Shown piece after piece: positions 5,809 to 22,082 of a DNA stretch of 23,576 bases. Source of the stretch: a virus. The notes under the pieces were generated by a model that worked only from the letters and a program-made list of their open reading frames with translations, searched no databases and was not told the origin of the DNA. Both the position numbers and the translations under genes were made by a program. The stretch covers positions 1 to 23,576 of the IMG/VR virus record IMGVR_UViG_3300025168_000688; one strand, written 5' to 3'. Each line of letters begins with the position of its first letter. Position 1 is the first letter of the stretch.

Positions 5809-6102
5809 TTATAGTTTCCTAATTAAATCAGCAGCTTCTTTTAAACCTGCTTTTTCTAATTCATTGTTTATTGTAATCCTATCAGATTTTATAGCGTTTT
5901 GCATATACTGTTCAATAACTTTTTGAATGTTATCTTGATACTCATTTACTTGTTTTTTTATGTTTTCAGGAGCATCTTCACTTACAGATACAATTTTTTT
6001 AATACATAAGTCAGACCAAAACTCTACTGGATGGCCTCCTTCGCTGGTTGTATGTACCTCAATCATTCCTAATTCAGGACCTGCTTTGTAACTCATTACC
6101 AT
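5809..6102 (-). CDS. Small helical phage protein, unknown function
   Basis: The product of 97 residues has a short N-terminal beta-like part (GPELGMIEVHTTSEGGHPVE) and a long helical, charged C-terminal part (from about residue 45) rich in K, E, N and Q, probably a coiled coil. The upstream gene ends in TAA at 6096-6098. Two starts are possible: ATG at 6102 (MVMSYKAG), preceded by GGAGAG at a suitable distance, or ATG at 6096 (MSYKAG), which overlaps the upstream stop as TAATG. I chose 6102 for its ribosome-binding site. I do not recognise a domain. Its place between a Rossmann-like gene and a virion gene gives no clear function. Confidence 0.55.
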   Translation of the reverse strand: MVMSYKAGPELGMIEVHTTSEGGHPVEFWSDLCIKKIVSVSEDAPENIKKQVNEYQDNIQKVIEQYMQNAIKSDRITINNELEKAGLKEAADLIRKL

Positions 6103-6839
6103 TTATTCGGCTCTCCTACTTGGTTTTTTTTAAGATGACTATCATGTTTATCAATTAATATAGGTTCTTTTTCTTGTTTAAATTGCTGTACTTGACTTCT
6201 TTTTTTTGCAATTAAAATGCCTTTTTCATCAGTTATAACAACCAATGGATCTTCAAGCCTGTGGTAGCCATAAAGTTTTTCATGCAGAGGAACTGCTGTA
6301 TCAAGCAAGTAACTTGTATGTGCAACTTCAACTTGAATGCCTTGATTCATAGCTTTGCTTAACCAAAACTCTACAGATGCTCTGCCTGATTCAGCAAAAT
6401 GCAGATTGCCTTTATAACTAAAGTCAACTCCAAATAATTTTATTTTTGCAACTTTATTCCAAACAGCAAATGCAACTGCATACGAAACTGTATTATTTAA
6501 ATAGTGACAACCACATGCACCCAAAACTTCATCAATAGGATATTCAACCAGGCCAGGGCAACGATCATCTAACTCACATGTATAGACTGGGCCTTCATGT
6601 TCAGTGAGAAGTTTAGACATACTATTGGTTTGTCCCCCGGCATCATCGGTATCTAAAAATCTAGATGCTGGATCCATCATAAATACTCTATCGTGAAATA
6701 TAACTGATGCTACTGAATTAATAGCCCATACCTCATCAAAGTGTGCGCCATGTGATTTTGCTAAATTATAATCAAACCAACTACTGCCCATGCCGACAAT
6801 AGCCACAGTTTTACCTTCAAGTTTCTTGATTGGTTTCAT
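6096..6839 (-). CDS. Rossmann-like protein, MptE/sialyltransferase-like (DUF115-type) candidate
   Basis: This 247-residue protein starts with a beta-strand and glycine loop, GKTVAIVGMGSS (residues 9-20), followed by DEVWAINS (35-42) and RVFMMDPASR (51-60), and later KIKLFGVDFSYKGN (132-145). This series (Gly/Ser loop, an Asn-containing strand end, an Asp-Pro strand end, a late GVDF strand) recalls the MptE-like/DUF115 and GT42 sialyltransferase-like Rossmann proteins, which bind nucleotides or nucleotide-sugars. The C-terminus after about residue 205 is charged and probably disordered. It lies among neck and tail genes, so it may modify a virion or host surface molecule, but no substrate can be read. 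The fold call is moderate; the reaction is unknown. Confidence 0.5.
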   Translation of the reverse strand: MKPIKKLEGKTVAIVGMGSSWFDYNLAKSHGAHFDEVWAINSVASVIFHDRVFMMDPASRFLDTDDAGGQTNSMSKLLTEHEGPVYTCELDDRCPGLVEYPIDEVLGACGCHYLNNTVSYAVAFAVWNKVAKIKLFGVDFSYKGNLHFAESGRASVEFWLSKAMNQGIQVEVAHTSYLLDTAVPLHEKLYGYHRLEDPLVVITDEKGILIAKKRSQVQQFKQEKEPILIDKHDSHLKKNQVGEPNKW

Positions 6840-6851
6840 ACTCTCTCTCCT

Positions 6852-7535
6852 TTATGTAACCGTTGTTCTAAGCGAATCGTATCTATATTCGTCTCTTCTA
6901 CCTCTTGCTTCTGCTTTGTTTTTAAGTCTAGCCATTTCTTGTTGAAATCTAGATTCGTATAAATTCATCATATCAGCATCACCTTTCATAAAAGTGTAAG
7001 CTTCTACCAAACAACCATACAAGAGTCCATTTCTTGCATGTTCTGATATCCATGTACCGGTTGTATCTGTAACCAATGAATTAGGTTTATAAAGATAATG
7101 TAATTCTGTTACATAGTCTTGATCTGGTACTGGAGATATTATAATAGTTGACTCTCTTGTCCCTGTATTTAAATCCTTATCAAAGTCTCCATAATACAAA
7201 GGTAATCCACGCGAGCCAGAGTCTGTTGGATCTGGAGCATATTCTTGCATAAAACTGGTATGTTTTTTATCCAAAAAACTATAGTCTCCATTTGACTTAA
7301 TGACTGCTAATGAAAAGGATAATTCAAAATCATCTGGTGTTGTTAAAAATCTTGAACCAGTTGTCATTAAGCCTTTTACATTTTTTCTAAAATAATCAAA
7401 CTGAACAAGCTCAAATATTCTTTCTTCTGTATTTTTTATTATATCGTCTAGAGTGCTGACAAATGTGGCTTCACTATTTTGAGTATAGTTTTGAATTAAA
7501 GTTTTTAATTCTGATAATGTTACTGGACTGCTCAT
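6852..7535 (-). CDS. Head-tail adaptor-like protein (second adaptor)
   Basis: This 227-residue protein begins with a helical region (LSELKTLIQNYTQNSEATFV, residues 7-26, and IIKNTEERIFELVQFDYFRK), followed by a mixed region with FLTTPDDFELSFSLAVI, TIIISPVPDQDYVTELHYLY, and a helical C-terminus (EHARNGLLYGCLVEAYTFMK). The same order (helices, a 'P.DF' beta segment, 'I.P.P' strand, C-terminal helices) is typical of the phage adaptor proteins (SU10-type) that bind below the portal. Size and order relative to the other adaptor gene (8264-8938) support this. Basic residues in the last 30 positions (RLKNKAEARGRRDEYRYDS) are notable. It could instead be a tail-tube-like protein of a short tail. Confidence 0.6.
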   Translation of the reverse strand: MSSPVTLSELKTLIQNYTQNSEATFVSTLDDIIKNTEERIFELVQFDYFRKNVKGLMTTGSRFLTTPDDFELSFSLAVIKSNGDYSFLDKKHTSFMQEYAPDPTDSGSRGLPLYYGDFDKDLNTGTRESTIIISPVPDQDYVTELHYLYKPNSLVTDTTGTWISEHARNGLLYGCLVEAYTFMKGDADMMNLYESRFQQEMARLKNKAEARGRRDEYRYDSLRTTVT

Positions 7536-7536
7536 A

Positions 7537-8262
7537 CTAAGTATTTAATTGGCCACCCATACCTGAGTGATTAGTACAGTAATAATAAAGCGTAGGTGCT
7601 CCACTTGCAACTTCTATCTGGGTGTAAGCCCCTGAAGATCCGGGAGTGCCGCTTGTAGTAACGCCTGTTGTATATTCAGACCCACCAGAATGAGTTCCAT
7701 TTGAAGTAGTAGAAAATCTTAACGGATGATTATTGTTGGTACTATCTGACTGGTCAAATTTGTAAGTTTGGCCTTCTGTTAAAGTTAAAGTTGGAGCGCG
7801 AGAACCATCAATATAAAAATAATTTGCCCCTAAATAGTTAGCTACAGTAACTGTATAAGTTGTTGGGCTAGGTGTTGGACTAGGACTAGGACTTGGACTA
7901 GGGCTTGGACTAGGCGTTGCAGCTGCTCCTGATATTGTTATTTCTCCTACACTTCCGGTTGATGGAGGAACTAGGAAGTTTGTTCCTATAATATCTGAGT
8001 TCATATAATGTTGTTCATAAATATTTGTATAAATAACAACTACAAAACCTTCACCAACTTCTTTGTCTGTATTTGGTCTAGGTTCATATAAAGCCTCTGG
8101 ATCCATTACATGAGGCAATGGCTCAAGCTGTGGATGTTTAGGTTCATAGCACTCAGGACAAGTCTTTAAACCATTCCATTCTTTTTTTAATTGTCTAAGG
8201 GGGTATTCAAAAGAACATCTATCGCATTGTGCTATTGCATACTTACCTGTAGCGTATGCCAT
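7537..8262 (-). CDS. Zinc-ribbon plus cupredoxin-like fusion protein of the neck/tail module
   Basis: The 241-residue product has three parts. Residues 13-38 hold two CxxC pairs (CDRC and CPEC), a zinc-ribbon-like knuckle. Residues about 116-134 are a linker of repeated Ser-Pro with two Thr. Residues about 135-241 form a beta-sandwich-like domain with a candidate type 1 copper site: H179 in NHPLRF, C229, H232 and M235 in YYYCTNHSGMGG. The C-x2-H-x2-M spacing equals that of the amicyanin ligand loop (C-T-P-H-P-F-M). The gene lies one base from each adaptor gene, so a virion protein is likely. Whether it binds copper, or keeps only the fold, cannot be decided here. Confidence 0.65.
   Translation of the reverse strand: MAYATGKYAIAQCDRCSFEYPLRQLKKEWNGLKTCPECYEPKHPQLEPLPHVMDPEALYEPRPNTDKEVGEGFVVVIYTNIYEQHYMNSDIIGTNFLVPPSTGSVGEITISGAAATPSPSPSPSPSPSPTPSPTTYTVTVANYLGANYFYIDGSRAPTLTLTEGQTYKFDQSDSTNNNHPLRFSTTSNGTHSGGSEYTTGVTTSGTPGSSGAYTQIEVASGAPTLYYYCTNHSGMGGQLNT
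7867..7914 (-). repeat. Short 6-bp tandem repeat coding for a Ser-Pro linker
   Basis: On the plus strand the stretch reads as repeated hexamers such as ggacta, ggactt and gggctt, coding for alternating Pro and Ser (or Thr) in the linker of the zinc-ribbon/cupredoxin protein. Such arrays can change length by slippage, which would alter linker length without breaking the frame. Confidence 0.75.
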
Positions 8263-8263
8263 A

Positions 8264-8938
8264 CTAATATCCGTTTCTTAAATAAGGCGCAATTCTAAAA
8301 GAGGCCCTATCTTCATCTTGAGACAATGCTCTTTCGAATTCATCTTCATACATTTGTTTTAACATAACCACTCTGTCAGGAGCTTTTTTAATTGCTATGT
8401 AATATGCAAGTCCAGCGGCAAAACATGGGTAAAATCTAAAAGGCATATCCACGGTGTTAGTCCCGGCATCAGCATCATCCATTCTTACTAGCTTGTTAAA
8501 AACCAATACATCAGTAGAGTTTTCTGGAGCTGGCCATATTTTTAAAATAGGAGTGGTAAGTTTATCTAGAAAAAATTGAGAAGGTCTAGACTTGGTTGAC
8601 TTGGTTGGAATATTTAAATATTCACTTCTGCTAATCATGGACATCTGAAGATCTAAATTAGTTCCGTCAGTGTTTCTTCTTATTGAACAATCTAATATAT
8701 CAATAACATTAGAGTTTAATGTGTAATCGTTTTGACCTTCAGTAACTGTTTGAGTTGATTGTTCTATGGTCCATTGATTAAGACCTCTGTTAGCCCATTC
8801 AGCAAGCATAAGGTTAATGGAACGTTTTGCAGTTTTTAAATCATAACCAGTTCTAAGCTCTAGGCCGCATCTTTCGAATGCTTCCTCTACGAACTCAGCT
8901 ACGTTTGGTTCAAAATTTGTACTGCCTGAAAGTGCCAT
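8264..8938 (-). CDS. Head-tail adaptor/connector protein
   Basis: This 224-residue protein starts MALSGSTNFEPNVAEFVEEA, followed by FERCGLE, RTGYDLKTAKRSINLMLAEW and NQWTIEQSTQTVTEGQNDYT, then LPxxVIDIL-like NSNVIDILDCSIRR, and a C-terminal helical part with AAGLAYYIAIKKAPDRV and MYEDEFERALSQDEDRASFR. This pattern (N-terminal helices with an 'A...IN..L..WANRG' segment, a 'G...Y.L...V.DI' strand and C-terminal helices) is the common adaptor or gp4/tail-tube-A-like connector of short-tailed phages that docks under the portal. The start overlaps the stop of the 41-residue gene upstream as TAATG. Confidence in a neck role is good; the exact family is less sure. Confidence 0.65.
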   Translation of the reverse strand: MALSGSTNFEPNVAEFVEEAFERCGLELRTGYDLKTAKRSINLMLAEWANRGLNQWTIEQSTQTVTEGQNDYTLNSNVIDILDCSIRRNTDGTNLDLQMSMISRSEYLNIPTKSTKSRPSQFFLDKLTTPILKIWPAPENSTDVLVFNKLVRMDDADAGTNTVDMPFRFYPCFAAGLAYYIAIKKAPDRVVMLKQMYEDEFERALSQDEDRASFRIAPYLRNGY

Positions 8939-9063: not shown

Positions 9064-9743
9064 TATTCCTCCGTATCGTTATACAAGTTATCGAAAACTC
9101 GATTTACATCCAATGTATAGTCTAAATCAGATTTAGAATAATGTATATGTGCAGAAGGTTTAAAGTCAGGTGCCCCTTCTCCAACCTGAAACCAAGCCGG
9201 GTGGGTAGCTCTAACTCTATTGTTTGGCAAAGCTACAATGTTTCCCGTCCATTCTCCTGCATCAAGTAGCTCTAAAACATGACTGCTTTTATGTTGGGCA
9301 GGATCATCTGCTATCTCACTTTCTGCATAATCGACAGTGAAGTAATATTTTGCCGGGAACATTTTACCATCAATCTTAGCAAGCCACGGACATGGTGTTG
9401 CTCGATTCATAACATAAACAGAATTATGGTGAGATGAACAATCCCAGGGTTGTGCATCATGTACAGCCATAGGTTCTGGCCATTCTTCAAAAGGAGTATC
9501 GCCAACTAAAGCTGTAATAGGCATACGAGCCCACATAGCGCCACCGTGAATTGTATCTTCTGGTTCGCCTTCTGCTTCTACGCCTGTAAATATAATATGA
9601 AAACCTAAACAACGATTTGGCATAGTGGTAACACCAATAGCCATTGCATGCAAGAACTCACCATGATATTGCTCATGGTTGTGCGTGTACTCTCTCCTTA
9701 CCCAGCACTTAAAGTGGGGTATATTACTATATAAGTAAGACAC
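9063..9743 (-). CDS. His-rich conserved-looking protein, unknown function
   Basis: This 226-residue protein is unusually rich in His (15 residues) with four Cys (13, 45, 102, 118) and many Trp. Clusters include HNHEQYHGEF (21-30), WDCSSHHNSVY (100-110), and PSAHIHYSK (197-204). The composition is soluble, globular and not repeat-like, and I recall similar proteins from marine phage genomes without a function. The His clusters could bind metal or form an active site, but no known enzyme motif is recognised. The start overlaps the stop of the Lys/Gly repeat gene upstream as TAATG. It lies between basic micro-proteins and the adaptor genes, so it could be a virion or an assembly protein. Confidence 0.6.
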   Translation of the reverse strand: MSYLYSNIPHFKCWVRREYTHNHEQYHGEFLHAMAIGVTTMPNRCLGFHIIFTGVEAEGEPEDTIHGGAMWARMPITALVGDTPFEEWPEPMAVHDAQPWDCSSHHNSVYVMNRATPCPWLAKIDGKMFPAKYYFTVDYAESEIADDPAQHKSSHVLELLDAGEWTGNIVALPNNRVRATHPAWFQVGEGAPDFKPSAHIHYSKSDLDYTLDVNRVFDNLYNDTEE

Positions 9744-9925
9744 TATTTACTTACTTTACCGCCTTTCTTATAACCTTTAGTGCTTACCTTTCCGCCTTTT
9801 TTATAGCCTTTAGTGCTAACCTTACCACCTTTCTTGTAGCCTTTTGATTTCATCATCCCGCCTTTTTTCATGCCTTTTGATTTAACCATCCCACCAGATG
9901 CGTAGCCTTTAGTTTTTTTAAACAT
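9743..9925 (-). CDS. Lys/Gly repeat protein (KGYKKGGKVST repeats)
   Basis: The 60-residue product is almost wholly repeats. Residues about 29-60 contain three nearly identical 11-residue units (KGYKKGGKVST), and the N-terminal half has degenerate versions (KGYASGGMVKS, KGMKKGGMMKS). It has no acidic residues, so it is extremely basic and very likely disordered alone; it may bind DNA, RNA or an acidic partner. The Lys-Gly-Gly motif resembles the basic tags of four other small proteins in the window. The ORF is coupled to the downstream gene by TAATG. This could be a protein that packs or contacts the genome; that is inference from charge. Confidence 0.65.
   Translation of the reverse strand: MFKKTKGYASGGMVKSKGMKKGGMMKSKGYKKGGKVSTKGYKKGGKVSTKGYKKGGKVSK
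9750..9848 (-). repeat. 33-bp tandem repeat inside the Lys/Gly repeat gene
   Basis: Three consecutive 33-base units (9750-9782, 9783-9815, 9816-9848) code for the KGYKKGGKVST unit. The copies differ by only a few bases, mostly synonymous. Degenerate copies continue toward the start codon. Copy number may vary between strains by recombination. Confidence 0.8.
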
Positions 9926-14934: not shown

Positions 14935-15399
14935 TTATAAAGATTTAATATCGTCAGGATCTAAAATTGTTCCAATGATGTCATCGTCATTAATGATTCT
15001 AACTTCGTGATCATCTTCTAAACGGAAACGGGAACCAGCATATCTGCCAATTAACACCCAGTCTTTTTCTTGACACCAGGGTTTGTCTCCATATTTTTCT
15101 TTTTCTTTATAAGCTAAAGGTCCAACCTTTAGAACGTAAGCAACCACTGTAGACAAAGATTCTCTGTCCATGGTTTCTTTAACGAGCTGAATACCGCCTT
15201 CAGTTACACCCTTACCTCTATAAGGTAAAACAAGAATACGCCATCCAGATGGATTTGGCATTCTGTCTAATAATGATTTACTGAGTAGTTTGGGATCTAG
15301 AACTCTTGCTTCTTCTGTTACAAAAGCTTTATCAAGTTCTAATGAGGCTTCTTTTTTTTCTTCTATATTTTCTGCGACTTTGTCATTCATCGATATCAT
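14935..15399 (-). CDS. Phage GroES-like co-chaperonin
   Basis: This 154-residue protein has an N-terminal extension of about 45 residues and then a GroES/Cpn10-like domain (about 49-146): SGWRILVLPYRGKGV (51-65), a mobile-loop motif GGIQL (68-72) like the GGIVL of bacterial GroES, VGPLAY with DKPWCQEKDWVLIGRYAGSR (105-124), and EVRIINDDDIIGTIL (132-146). Bacterial GroES has about 97 residues, so this copy is longer. It would cap host GroEL and help fold phage proteins such as the capsid subunit, by analogy with T4 gp31. The two possible starts are MISMNDK (15399) or MNDK (15390); both overlap the upstream gene. Confidence 0.8.
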   Translation of the reverse strand: MISMNDKVAENIEEKKEASLELDKAFVTEEARVLDPKLLSKSLLDRMPNPSGWRILVLPYRGKGVTEGGIQLVKETMDRESLSTVVAYVLKVGPLAYKEKEKYGDKPWCQEKDWVLIGRYAGSRFRLEDDHEVRIINDDDIIGTILDPDDIKSL

Positions 15400-20166: not shown

Positions 20167-21636
20167 CTAATAATAAACTCGTTGTCTAGGAATTGGCTCT
20201 TCATCTTCTTCATCTGAATCCAATTTTACAAAGTTACCTTGACGAAATCTTAGTATAGCCTGTGTTGTTGAATCTACAAAATCATCGTGTTCACCGAAAG
20301 GAAAGGCTGCGCATTCCTCTATAACTTCCTCTGCATAAATAGCATCGGGAGCCCACACCATCCCTGCTTCAAACACAGGAGAGGCGCTGTGTACACGGGT
20401 GACTTTGTCCTTCCCTTTAGTGGGTCGGTAGTTCACCACAGGTATGCCCATCATTCTCAGCTCGTGCGTCAAAGGCGTACCACTTGCTTGAGATTCTATC
20501 AAGACAATGTCCGGTTGCCAATAGCTATATTCATCATAAGCTGTCGACTTAAGATCGGGAAAGTCCCAACGCCCACGTTTGGCATCGAGCAAGATAATAG
20601 ATTCAGGTGCACCATCGCTCGGACGAAACACGCCCCAAGTGGTAATGGCGCTGTAGTCAGCAGTCTGCTTAGAACTAAAAGCGGTATCGTAAGACTGGAG
20701 TATGTACGAACAAGGAGGTGGATCATCGTGCTCCCACATCTGCCACCATTCGCGTTTGAGCAAAGCGCCTTCTTCAGAGGTAGGGTTTTGCATGTACTGG
20801 GCGTTCCACTTGGCCACAGGCAACGAAGCTTTCACAGACTCAAGCTCTTCAATCTTCCAGTACCCAGGCCACAAGGGTGTGTTGTCTTCCAAAATGGCAG
20901 GCAACTCTAAGATCTCCCATTGATCAGCATGGTCTTCGCTCATGCGCTTAATAAGTTTCTCAGTCAAATCTAGCGTTGACCAACGCGTCATGACAATCAC
21001 AATGATACCGCCGGGCTGTAAACGCTGGCGCGGGCCAGAGGTATACCATTCATACGCTGACTCAAGGGCAGACGGAGACATGGCATCTTGCTCAGAGTGT
21101 GGATCATCAATGATCAGCAAGTCAGCGCCTCGACCCGTAATCGCGCCACCGACTCCAGCCGCAAAGTATTCACCGCCTTTGTTCGTCTCCCAGCGCCCGG
21201 CTGACTTAGAATCAGCAGACAGCTGTACGTTCTCAAAGATCTGCTTGTACTCATTGGTGTCCATCAAGTTACGCACCTTGCGCCCAAACCTTGCTGAGAG
21301 TTCCGCGGTGTGAGTGGTTTGCATGATTTTCATATCAGGACGCAGTCCCATGATCCAACTTGGGAAGAACACAGAAGCAAACTCGGACTTGGTGTGACGT
21401 GGGGGCATGTTAACGATCAGGCGCTTGCACTTGCCTTGGGCTACCGATTCGAGTTTTTGCGCGAAGAGCCTGTGGTGATCGCCTTCGATGAAGCCATCCC
21501 AGACTTGCTTGACGTAGTGAATGAAGTCTTTCTGAGCTTTGCCGCTGGTTTTAAGTTTCTTGATGCGATCTTGGATGGCCACTATCTCTTTTAGGGCATC
21601 ATCTGGAACATGGTCTAGTTTTGTTTCTTTTCCCAT
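20167..21636 (-). CDS. terL: Large terminase subunit (DNA-packaging ATPase and nuclease)
   Basis: This 489-residue protein is the packaging motor. The ATPase half shows a variant Walker A (PPRHTKS, 78-84), Walker B (LLIIDD, 173-178) and a coupling motif MTRW (216-219). The nuclease half shows the acidic residues of an RNase-H-like fold: D317 in QSYDTAF, E381 in VLIES, and D452/D455 in HDDFVD. It acts with the portal to translocate DNA into the procapsid, and cuts it. No small terminase is seen in the window; the XF1762-like gene takes its usual place. The start overlaps that gene's end by 22 bases. Confidence 0.9.
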   Translation of the reverse strand: MGKETKLDHVPDDALKEIVAIQDRIKKLKTSGKAQKDFIHYVKQVWDGFIEGDHHRLFAQKLESVAQGKCKRLIVNMPPRHTKSEFASVFFPSWIMGLRPDMKIMQTTHTAELSARFGRKVRNLMDTNEYKQIFENVQLSADSKSAGRWETNKGGEYFAAGVGGAITGRGADLLIIDDPHSEQDAMSPSALESAYEWYTSGPRQRLQPGGIIVIVMTRWSTLDLTEKLIKRMSEDHADQWEILELPAILEDNTPLWPGYWKIEELESVKASLPVAKWNAQYMQNPTSEEGALLKREWWQMWEHDDPPPCSYILQSYDTAFSSKQTADYSAITTWGVFRPSDGAPESIILLDAKRGRWDFPDLKSTAYDEYSYWQPDIVLIESQASGTPLTHELRMMGIPVVNYRPTKGKDKVTRVHSASPVFEAGMVWAPDAIYAEEVIEECAAFPFGEHDDFVDSTTQAILRFRQGNFVKLDSDEEDEEPIPRQRVYY

Positions 21637-22082
21637 CTAAATTTCATTTGTCCTATAACTGGTTGCCATTCTCTCCCTGGTCTTGTAGTCCAACCTTTGC
21701 CTTCTTTCCATCCGCCTGTTTCTCCAATCATTTTCCAACCAACAGCTTTCATGGTAGATCCAGACTCAGTTTGTAATGTATAGGTTATCATTCTTTTGCC
21801 ACCCATTTGATTCCAAACTCTCCAGCACCTTCCATATAAAAATGAATTAGTATTTTTTGGAGCATCTTCTAAAACACAAGTTCTTGTTACTTCAGCTGTA
21901 AATCCATCGTCTAGCTTTCTTGCGACAGGCCTTCCAACAATTGATACTCCTACAAGTTTATCATCACAACTAGCTCCTAAACAAAACCTAGCTCCTTGAG
22001 CTTTTTTATTGTGTCTATGAAAATTTGTTACAAACTCATTTGCTTCCCTTAATGTTATGGGAATTATCTTTAGTCTCTCCAA
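21615..22082 (-). CDS. XF1762-type GNAT-like protein, TTG start
   Basis: This 155-residue protein matches the XF1762 family pattern as I recall it: IPITLREANEFV (7-18), HRHN, VGVSIVGRPVAR (44-55), EVTRTCV (64-70), ITYTLQTESG (99-108) and GWK (115-117). The family has a GNAT-like look and is often phage-encoded, with no known substrate. TTG at 22080-22082 is the best start, since an in-frame TGA lies just upstream and no ATG precedes the conserved block; GAGAG lies 5' of it. It is the first gene of the leftward module and overlaps terL by 22 bases. Confidence 0.7.
   Translation of the reverse strand: MERLKIIPITLREANEFVTNFHRHNKKAQGARFCLGASCDDKLVGVSIVGRPVARKLDDGFTAEVTRTCVLEDAPKNTNSFLYGRCWRVWNQMGGKRMITYTLQTESGSTMKAVGWKMIGETGGWKEGKGWTTRPGREWQPVIGQMKFRWEKKQN

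Follow-up and report, generated by a model that had tools for sequence, protein, structure and literature searches.

A mobile cupredoxin-like domain with an invariant His-Cys-His-Met ligand set in a predicted phage neck protein and other virion proteins of marine phages

The window analyzed here is the whole stretch of 23,576 nucleotides of viral DNA (IMG/VR record IMGVR_UViG_3300025168_000688, positions 1 to 23,576), and its gene content includes a terminase, a portal, a GroES-like protein, a gpT-like capsid protein, adaptors, and fibre proteins. A minus-strand gene at 7537-8262 (ATG at 8262, stop at 7537) encodes a protein of 241 residues; this is the sole open strand, the plus strand of 7537-8262 having many stops and no ORF. 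The upstream (8264-8938, minus) and downstream (6852-7535, minus) neighbors match the Pfam family SU10_adaptor (PF24175) with E values of 1e-13 and 2e-18, respectively, which bears out the earlier placement of the gene between two head-tail adaptor genes. Among the relatives with room for the neighboring gene, an SU10-type adaptor lies directly upstream in 78 of 79 and downstream in 71 of 71. Thus, the gene occupies the location of an SU10/Pam1-type neck module, between two SU10-type adaptor genes. Furthermore, phage DSL-LC04 has the gene layout of the window, and a ‘Pam1 adaptor protein’ is annotated beside its member of the phrog_28581-type N-terminal family. From this synteny, we infer that the 241-residue protein is a component of the virion neck.

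Several other minus-strand genes of the window deserve mention. The 226-residue protein encoded at 9063-9743 matches phrog_3704, labeled ferredoxin (E 1e-29), but a ferredoxin cysteine pattern is missing from it, and the label seems mistaken for this protein. Next to it, at 9743-9925, lies a 60-residue Lys/Gly protein made of repeats of about 11 residues (KGYKKGGKVST), one among several small, very basic ORFs between the capsid and adaptor genes. A 247-residue protein of the virion module (6096-6839) has a Rossmann-like start (VAIVGMGSS) and no match in Pfam, PHROG, or NCBIfam. The GroES-like Cpn10 protein (14935-15399) is likewise found within the virion module in DSL-LC04 and CRP-902. An XF1762 family protein (21615-22082; E 3e-49), which also matches the Mom protein family (DNA modification), adjoins the terminase gene.

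The searches split the 241-residue neck protein into two separate predicted modules, an N-terminal anchor and a C-terminal cupredoxin domain. The anchor comprises residues 1-66 (8065-8262, minus) and carries the pattern CxxC-x18-CxxC, and the cupredoxin domain comprises residues 132-241 (7540-7869, minus). Between them, the Ser-Pro repeat linker of the preliminary description is present at about residues 116-133 (7864-7917, minus; a 12-bp tandem repeat in the DNA). All eight residues singled out in that description, namely C13, C16, C35, C38, H179, C229, H232, and M235, are found at exactly these positions upon translation of the minus-strand ORF. The codon of H179, the first predicted copper ligand, lies at 7726-7728 (minus), and the codons of the copper loop, C229-T-N-H232-S-G-M235, at 7558-7578 (minus). 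A sequence search identified 80 viral relatives of the neck protein, the majority of them matched over the full length; the linker consists of Ser-Pro in some relatives and of SALGSVTV-type repeats in others.

The anchor belongs to phrog_28581 and is found in DSL-LC04, the roseophages CRP-901 and CRP-902, and the pelagiphages HTVC023P and HTVC027P. In the phrog_28581 proteins of DSL-LC04, CRP-902, and HTVC027P, the N-terminal domain is the same and the gene likewise lies between or beside adaptor genes, whereas the C-termini differ (SALGSVTV-type repeats or other sequences) and the cupredoxin domain is missing. The window protein has two CxxC knuckles (C13/C16 and C35/C38), and all four Cys are present in 70 of the 81 full-length family sequences. 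The remaining 11 have lost one or more of them, 10 of these 11 having lost three or four together (ICDRSG...VGPDQ), and DSL-LC04 has C, C, C, and D at the four positions. Such concerted loss is consistent with a metal site that is useful yet dispensable for the anchor fold. Since Pfam zinc-ribbon profiles match the anchor marginally (the best, Zn_ribbon_20, at E 0.009 in 4 of 32 sequences), it is the CxxC pairs that justify the name zinc ribbon; a PDB search with the N-terminal domain returned no meaningful relative. Therefore, the earlier picture of a zinc ribbon joined to a cupredoxin-like domain stands as regards the CxxC pairs, but the ribbon is optional and is part of a separate anchor family.

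For the C-terminal domain, AlphaFold2 (AF2) with a 124-row alignment predicted a strand-rich model with a pLDDT of 97.7 and a pTM of 0.90. This run replaced an earlier one based on 15 close relatives (pLDDT 62), the Foldseek matches of which already favored cupredoxins. AF2 and Foldseek together describe the predicted domain as a Greek-key beta-sandwich of cupredoxin topology. The first 13 Foldseek matches in the PDB are all copper cupredoxins (best E 3.2e-4; TM 0.46-0.60), in an order that runs from a three-domain nitrite reductase (E 3.2e-4) via rusticyanin to a multicopper oxidase. In the AF2 model, H179 stands just before a strand, C229 at a strand end, and H232 and M235 in the next loop, ahead of the last strand. 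This predicted placement is the anatomy of a cupredoxin; as far as strand and loop positions allow one to judge, the model does not scatter the four residues.

Independent of the structural route, a PDB profile search returned pseudoazurin first (E 0.017), followed by five plastocyanins, with H179 aligned to the plastocyanin ligand His and the Cys and His to the loop ligands. The hhalign comparison with PF00127 proteins gave an E value of 1.7e-4 at a probability of 50%, with the Cys and the second His aligned and H179 unpaired. Each sequence score alone is marginal; the structure and sequence-profile routes converge, and therefore fold and ligands agree. Single-sequence searches of the PDB and Pfam found nothing for this domain, PF00127 did not match the neck protein or the 15-row alignment of close relatives at the Pfam cut-off, and no Pfam or NCBIfam model covers the domain, which in PHROGs is carried inside tail-fibre and baseplate families. 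A CuA reading was discarded, as the ligand set is His2CysMet and the two Cys of CuA are missing. Ig domains are among the weak matches, and tail proteins often contain Ig-like domains; hence one may ask whether the pattern arose by chance in an immunoglobulin-like decoration domain unrelated to cupredoxins. This explanation is very improbable and already disfavored, as cupredoxins outrank Ig folds in the structure and profile searches alike. The reading of the C-terminal domain as cupredoxin-like in the preliminary description, and its interpretation as a whole, is thus largely supported.

His, Cys, His, and Met form the ligand set of type 1 copper sites, and C-x2-H-x2-M is the spacing of amicyanin. 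H179, C229, H232, and M235 are each present in all 81 full-length family sequences and in all 307 distinct copies of the domain (at least 80 residues each, drawn from viral contigs, phage records, and cellular contigs), and no other column is so conserved among the 307. They are also the sole invariant columns of the 124-row alignment, in which mutual identity is below 82%, identity with the window protein goes down to 29%, and mean column identity is 42%. Some of the search patterns had included the copper loop; the possible selection bias was checked by a scan without C229, H232, and M235 in the patterns, in which C-x2-H-x2-M was kept in 76 of 76 distinct copies. The four residues are thus conserved together, as had been asked of them, and homologues do not lose the Cys or His freely. 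Judged from these alignments, the His/Cys/His/Met pattern is not a chance one.

Loop length varies among known cupredoxins while the ligands stay. The phage domain behaves likewise: a few remote copies have longer loops with the ligands kept (CTVHGNAM, CYVHGIGM, CSTHGNSM, and CVNHAASQM), and the variants C-x2-H-x3-M and C-x2-H-x5-M retain the ligands as well. The C-H-M loop is lost only in remote baseplate copies of cyanophages (S-RIM2, S-BM1, S-RIM4, and S-P4), where Cys and Met are gone together; the baseplate copies of S-SSM4 and ACG-2014d retain the H and C-x2-H-x2-M. The loop-less copies indicate that the fold can serve without metal. Besides, the residue after the first ligand His is Pro in 293 of the 307 copies, where type 1 sites usually have Asn or Ser. 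Therefore, the spectroscopy and potential of the site may differ from those of textbook cupredoxins. The loop-less baseplate proteins and the replacement of the second-shell Asn/Ser by Pro would both suit a metal-free relic of the cupredoxin fold, in which hydrogen bonds or packing through the conserved residues keep the loop in place. We consider such a relic unlikely, as neither the restriction of invariance to His, Cys, His, and Met among about 105 positions nor the retention of these residues through changes of loop length would be expected of it. Conservation this strict of His, Cys, His, and Met, kept at identities as low as 29% and through loop-length change, is hard to explain without a metal.

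A metal, either copper or, in the cytoplasm, zinc, could also be a structural staple only, with no role in adsorption beyond folding stability. The ligands are invariant across very different virion contexts, and other phage fibres and spikes contain structural metals, which lends this explanation some weight. Against it, the first half of the domain persists in some relatives that have lost the loop, so the metal is unnecessary for folding in general. A purely structural metal is a possibility to be taken seriously, albeit a minor one.

The domain is far from confined to the neck protein. At E<=0.01, it occurs in about 176 phage records, in tail-fibre, baseplate, and structural proteins of marine phages, mostly phages of Synechococcus and Prochlorococcus and also of Pelagibacter and Methylophilales. 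In marine T4-like cyanophages (P-SSM2, Syn1, S-TIM5, and Bellamy), the same domain is 32-67% identical, has all ligands in most of the full-length matches examined, and sits in fibre or baseplate proteins without the zinc-ribbon anchor; the cyanophage carriers are annotated merely as tail fibre or virion structural protein. On two contigs (L012 and L013), a complete cupredoxin copy is inserted near residue 107 of the downstream adaptor, the rest of which is intact. These adaptors are encoded at L013:4719-5759 and L012:2989-4014, and their counterpart in the window (6852-7535) has no insert. Tandem copies occur on L064, L343, and L344. Thus, the domain, earlier described as a feature of this neck protein, is present here but is not particular to it, being a widespread mobile module of marine phages.

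Outside phages, the domain lies inside a protein of about 3400 residues with C-type lectin and DUF11 domains on a marine Flavobacteriaceae chromosome. On Flavobacteriaceae contigs L103, L101, and L105, it is found at the same position (about 1674) of open frames of about 3400 residues in several genomes, the L103 frame containing C-type lectin, DUF7507, and DUF11 domains. Collagen repeats accompany the domain on a contig that was binned as Euryarchaeota and is possibly viral. Among Foldseek neighbors in BFVD are beta-sandwich proteins of Marseillevirus/Pithovirus (A0A481YVH3, A0A481Z6J5, and A0A481Z7Q7; E 2e-5 to 5e-5). That the domain occurs alongside fibre, baseplate, lectin, and collagen sequences points to display for attachment or decoration and not to an enzyme. 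The ligand set and the fold are those of electron-transfer proteins, and an active redox role, in which the domain would shuttle an electron or quench oxidants, be it on the host surface or within the particle, has to be weighed. However, the neighborhood of the cupredoxin domain showed no domain or gene for a redox partner, and the domain travels with lectin, collagen, and fibre domains and not with oxidoreductases. A redox role is therefore quite improbable, and adhesion, metal-stabilized or metal-bridged, is likelier than redox work.

Taken as a whole, we favor a reading in which a neck anchor carries a stalk and, on it, a mobile cupredoxin domain of the type 1 copper kind, most likely for attachment, and give it a probability of roughly 0.55. 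The N-terminal domain would dock the protein at the adaptor ring and in most members would be a structural zinc ribbon; the flexible Ser-Pro stalk would hold the cupredoxin domain outward from the particle. With its full type 1 ligand set, this domain would most likely bind one copper ion, which may stiffen the tip loop of the beta-sandwich. Seawater or lysate could load the site after release. The metal-stabilized or metal-bridged display module would most likely mediate surface attachment, either to the envelope of the host or of one virion part to another. The occurrence of the domain in fibre and baseplate proteins, its insertion in an adaptor, its tandem duplication, and the giant lectin-bearing protein count for the display role. 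Similarity to solved cupredoxins at the edge of detection in sequence (E 0.017; hhalign probability 50%) counts against the favored reading, as do the Pro after the first His, the loop-less baseplate copies, and the assembly of virions in a reducing, copper-poor cytoplasm.

The recurrence of the module in tail fibres, baseplates, and neck proteins of ocean phages suggests that many phage particles carry putative copper sites. A broader proposal is that marine phages at large carry copper-loaded cupredoxins, that the copper site is used in host recognition or adsorption, with copper in the part that iron plays in the ‘Ferrojan Horse’ idea, and that the module is shared with adhesin-like marine bacterial proteins; we regard this proposal as speculative and rather doubtful. 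Should copper prove to be bound here, a sizeable fraction of ocean phages would have a redox-active metal centre on the particle, one that neither Pfam nor NCBIfam annotates and that the literature searched does not mention, and seawater copper chemistry would be linked to phage adsorption and stability. Within the searchable literature, which covers a minority of the subscription journals, no description of such a copper-type domain in phage tails, cyanophages, or virions was found; automatic fold annotations of the domain may exist elsewhere. The domain does not represent a new fold; what is new is the role in which a known fold family appears.

Among known systems, the best structural matches are three-domain copper nitrite reductase (2dv6 and 6tfo) and rusticyanin (1rcy and 2cak), with Foldseek E values of 3e-4 to 6e-3, TM values of 0.50-0.60, and about 16-18% identity; these known cases are an enzyme domain or an electron carrier. 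With plastocyanin, pseudoazurin, and amicyanin (PF00127), the phage domain shares the beta-sandwich, the His before one strand, the Cys at a strand end, and the His and Met in the following loop, as well as the C-x2-H spacing and, specifically, the amicyanin-length C-x2-H-x2-M. In contrast to them, it falls below the PF00127 score and has Pro for Asn after the first His. Furthermore, where plastocyanin, pseudoazurin, and amicyanin are soluble periplasmic electron carriers, the phage domain is a module of virion proteins.
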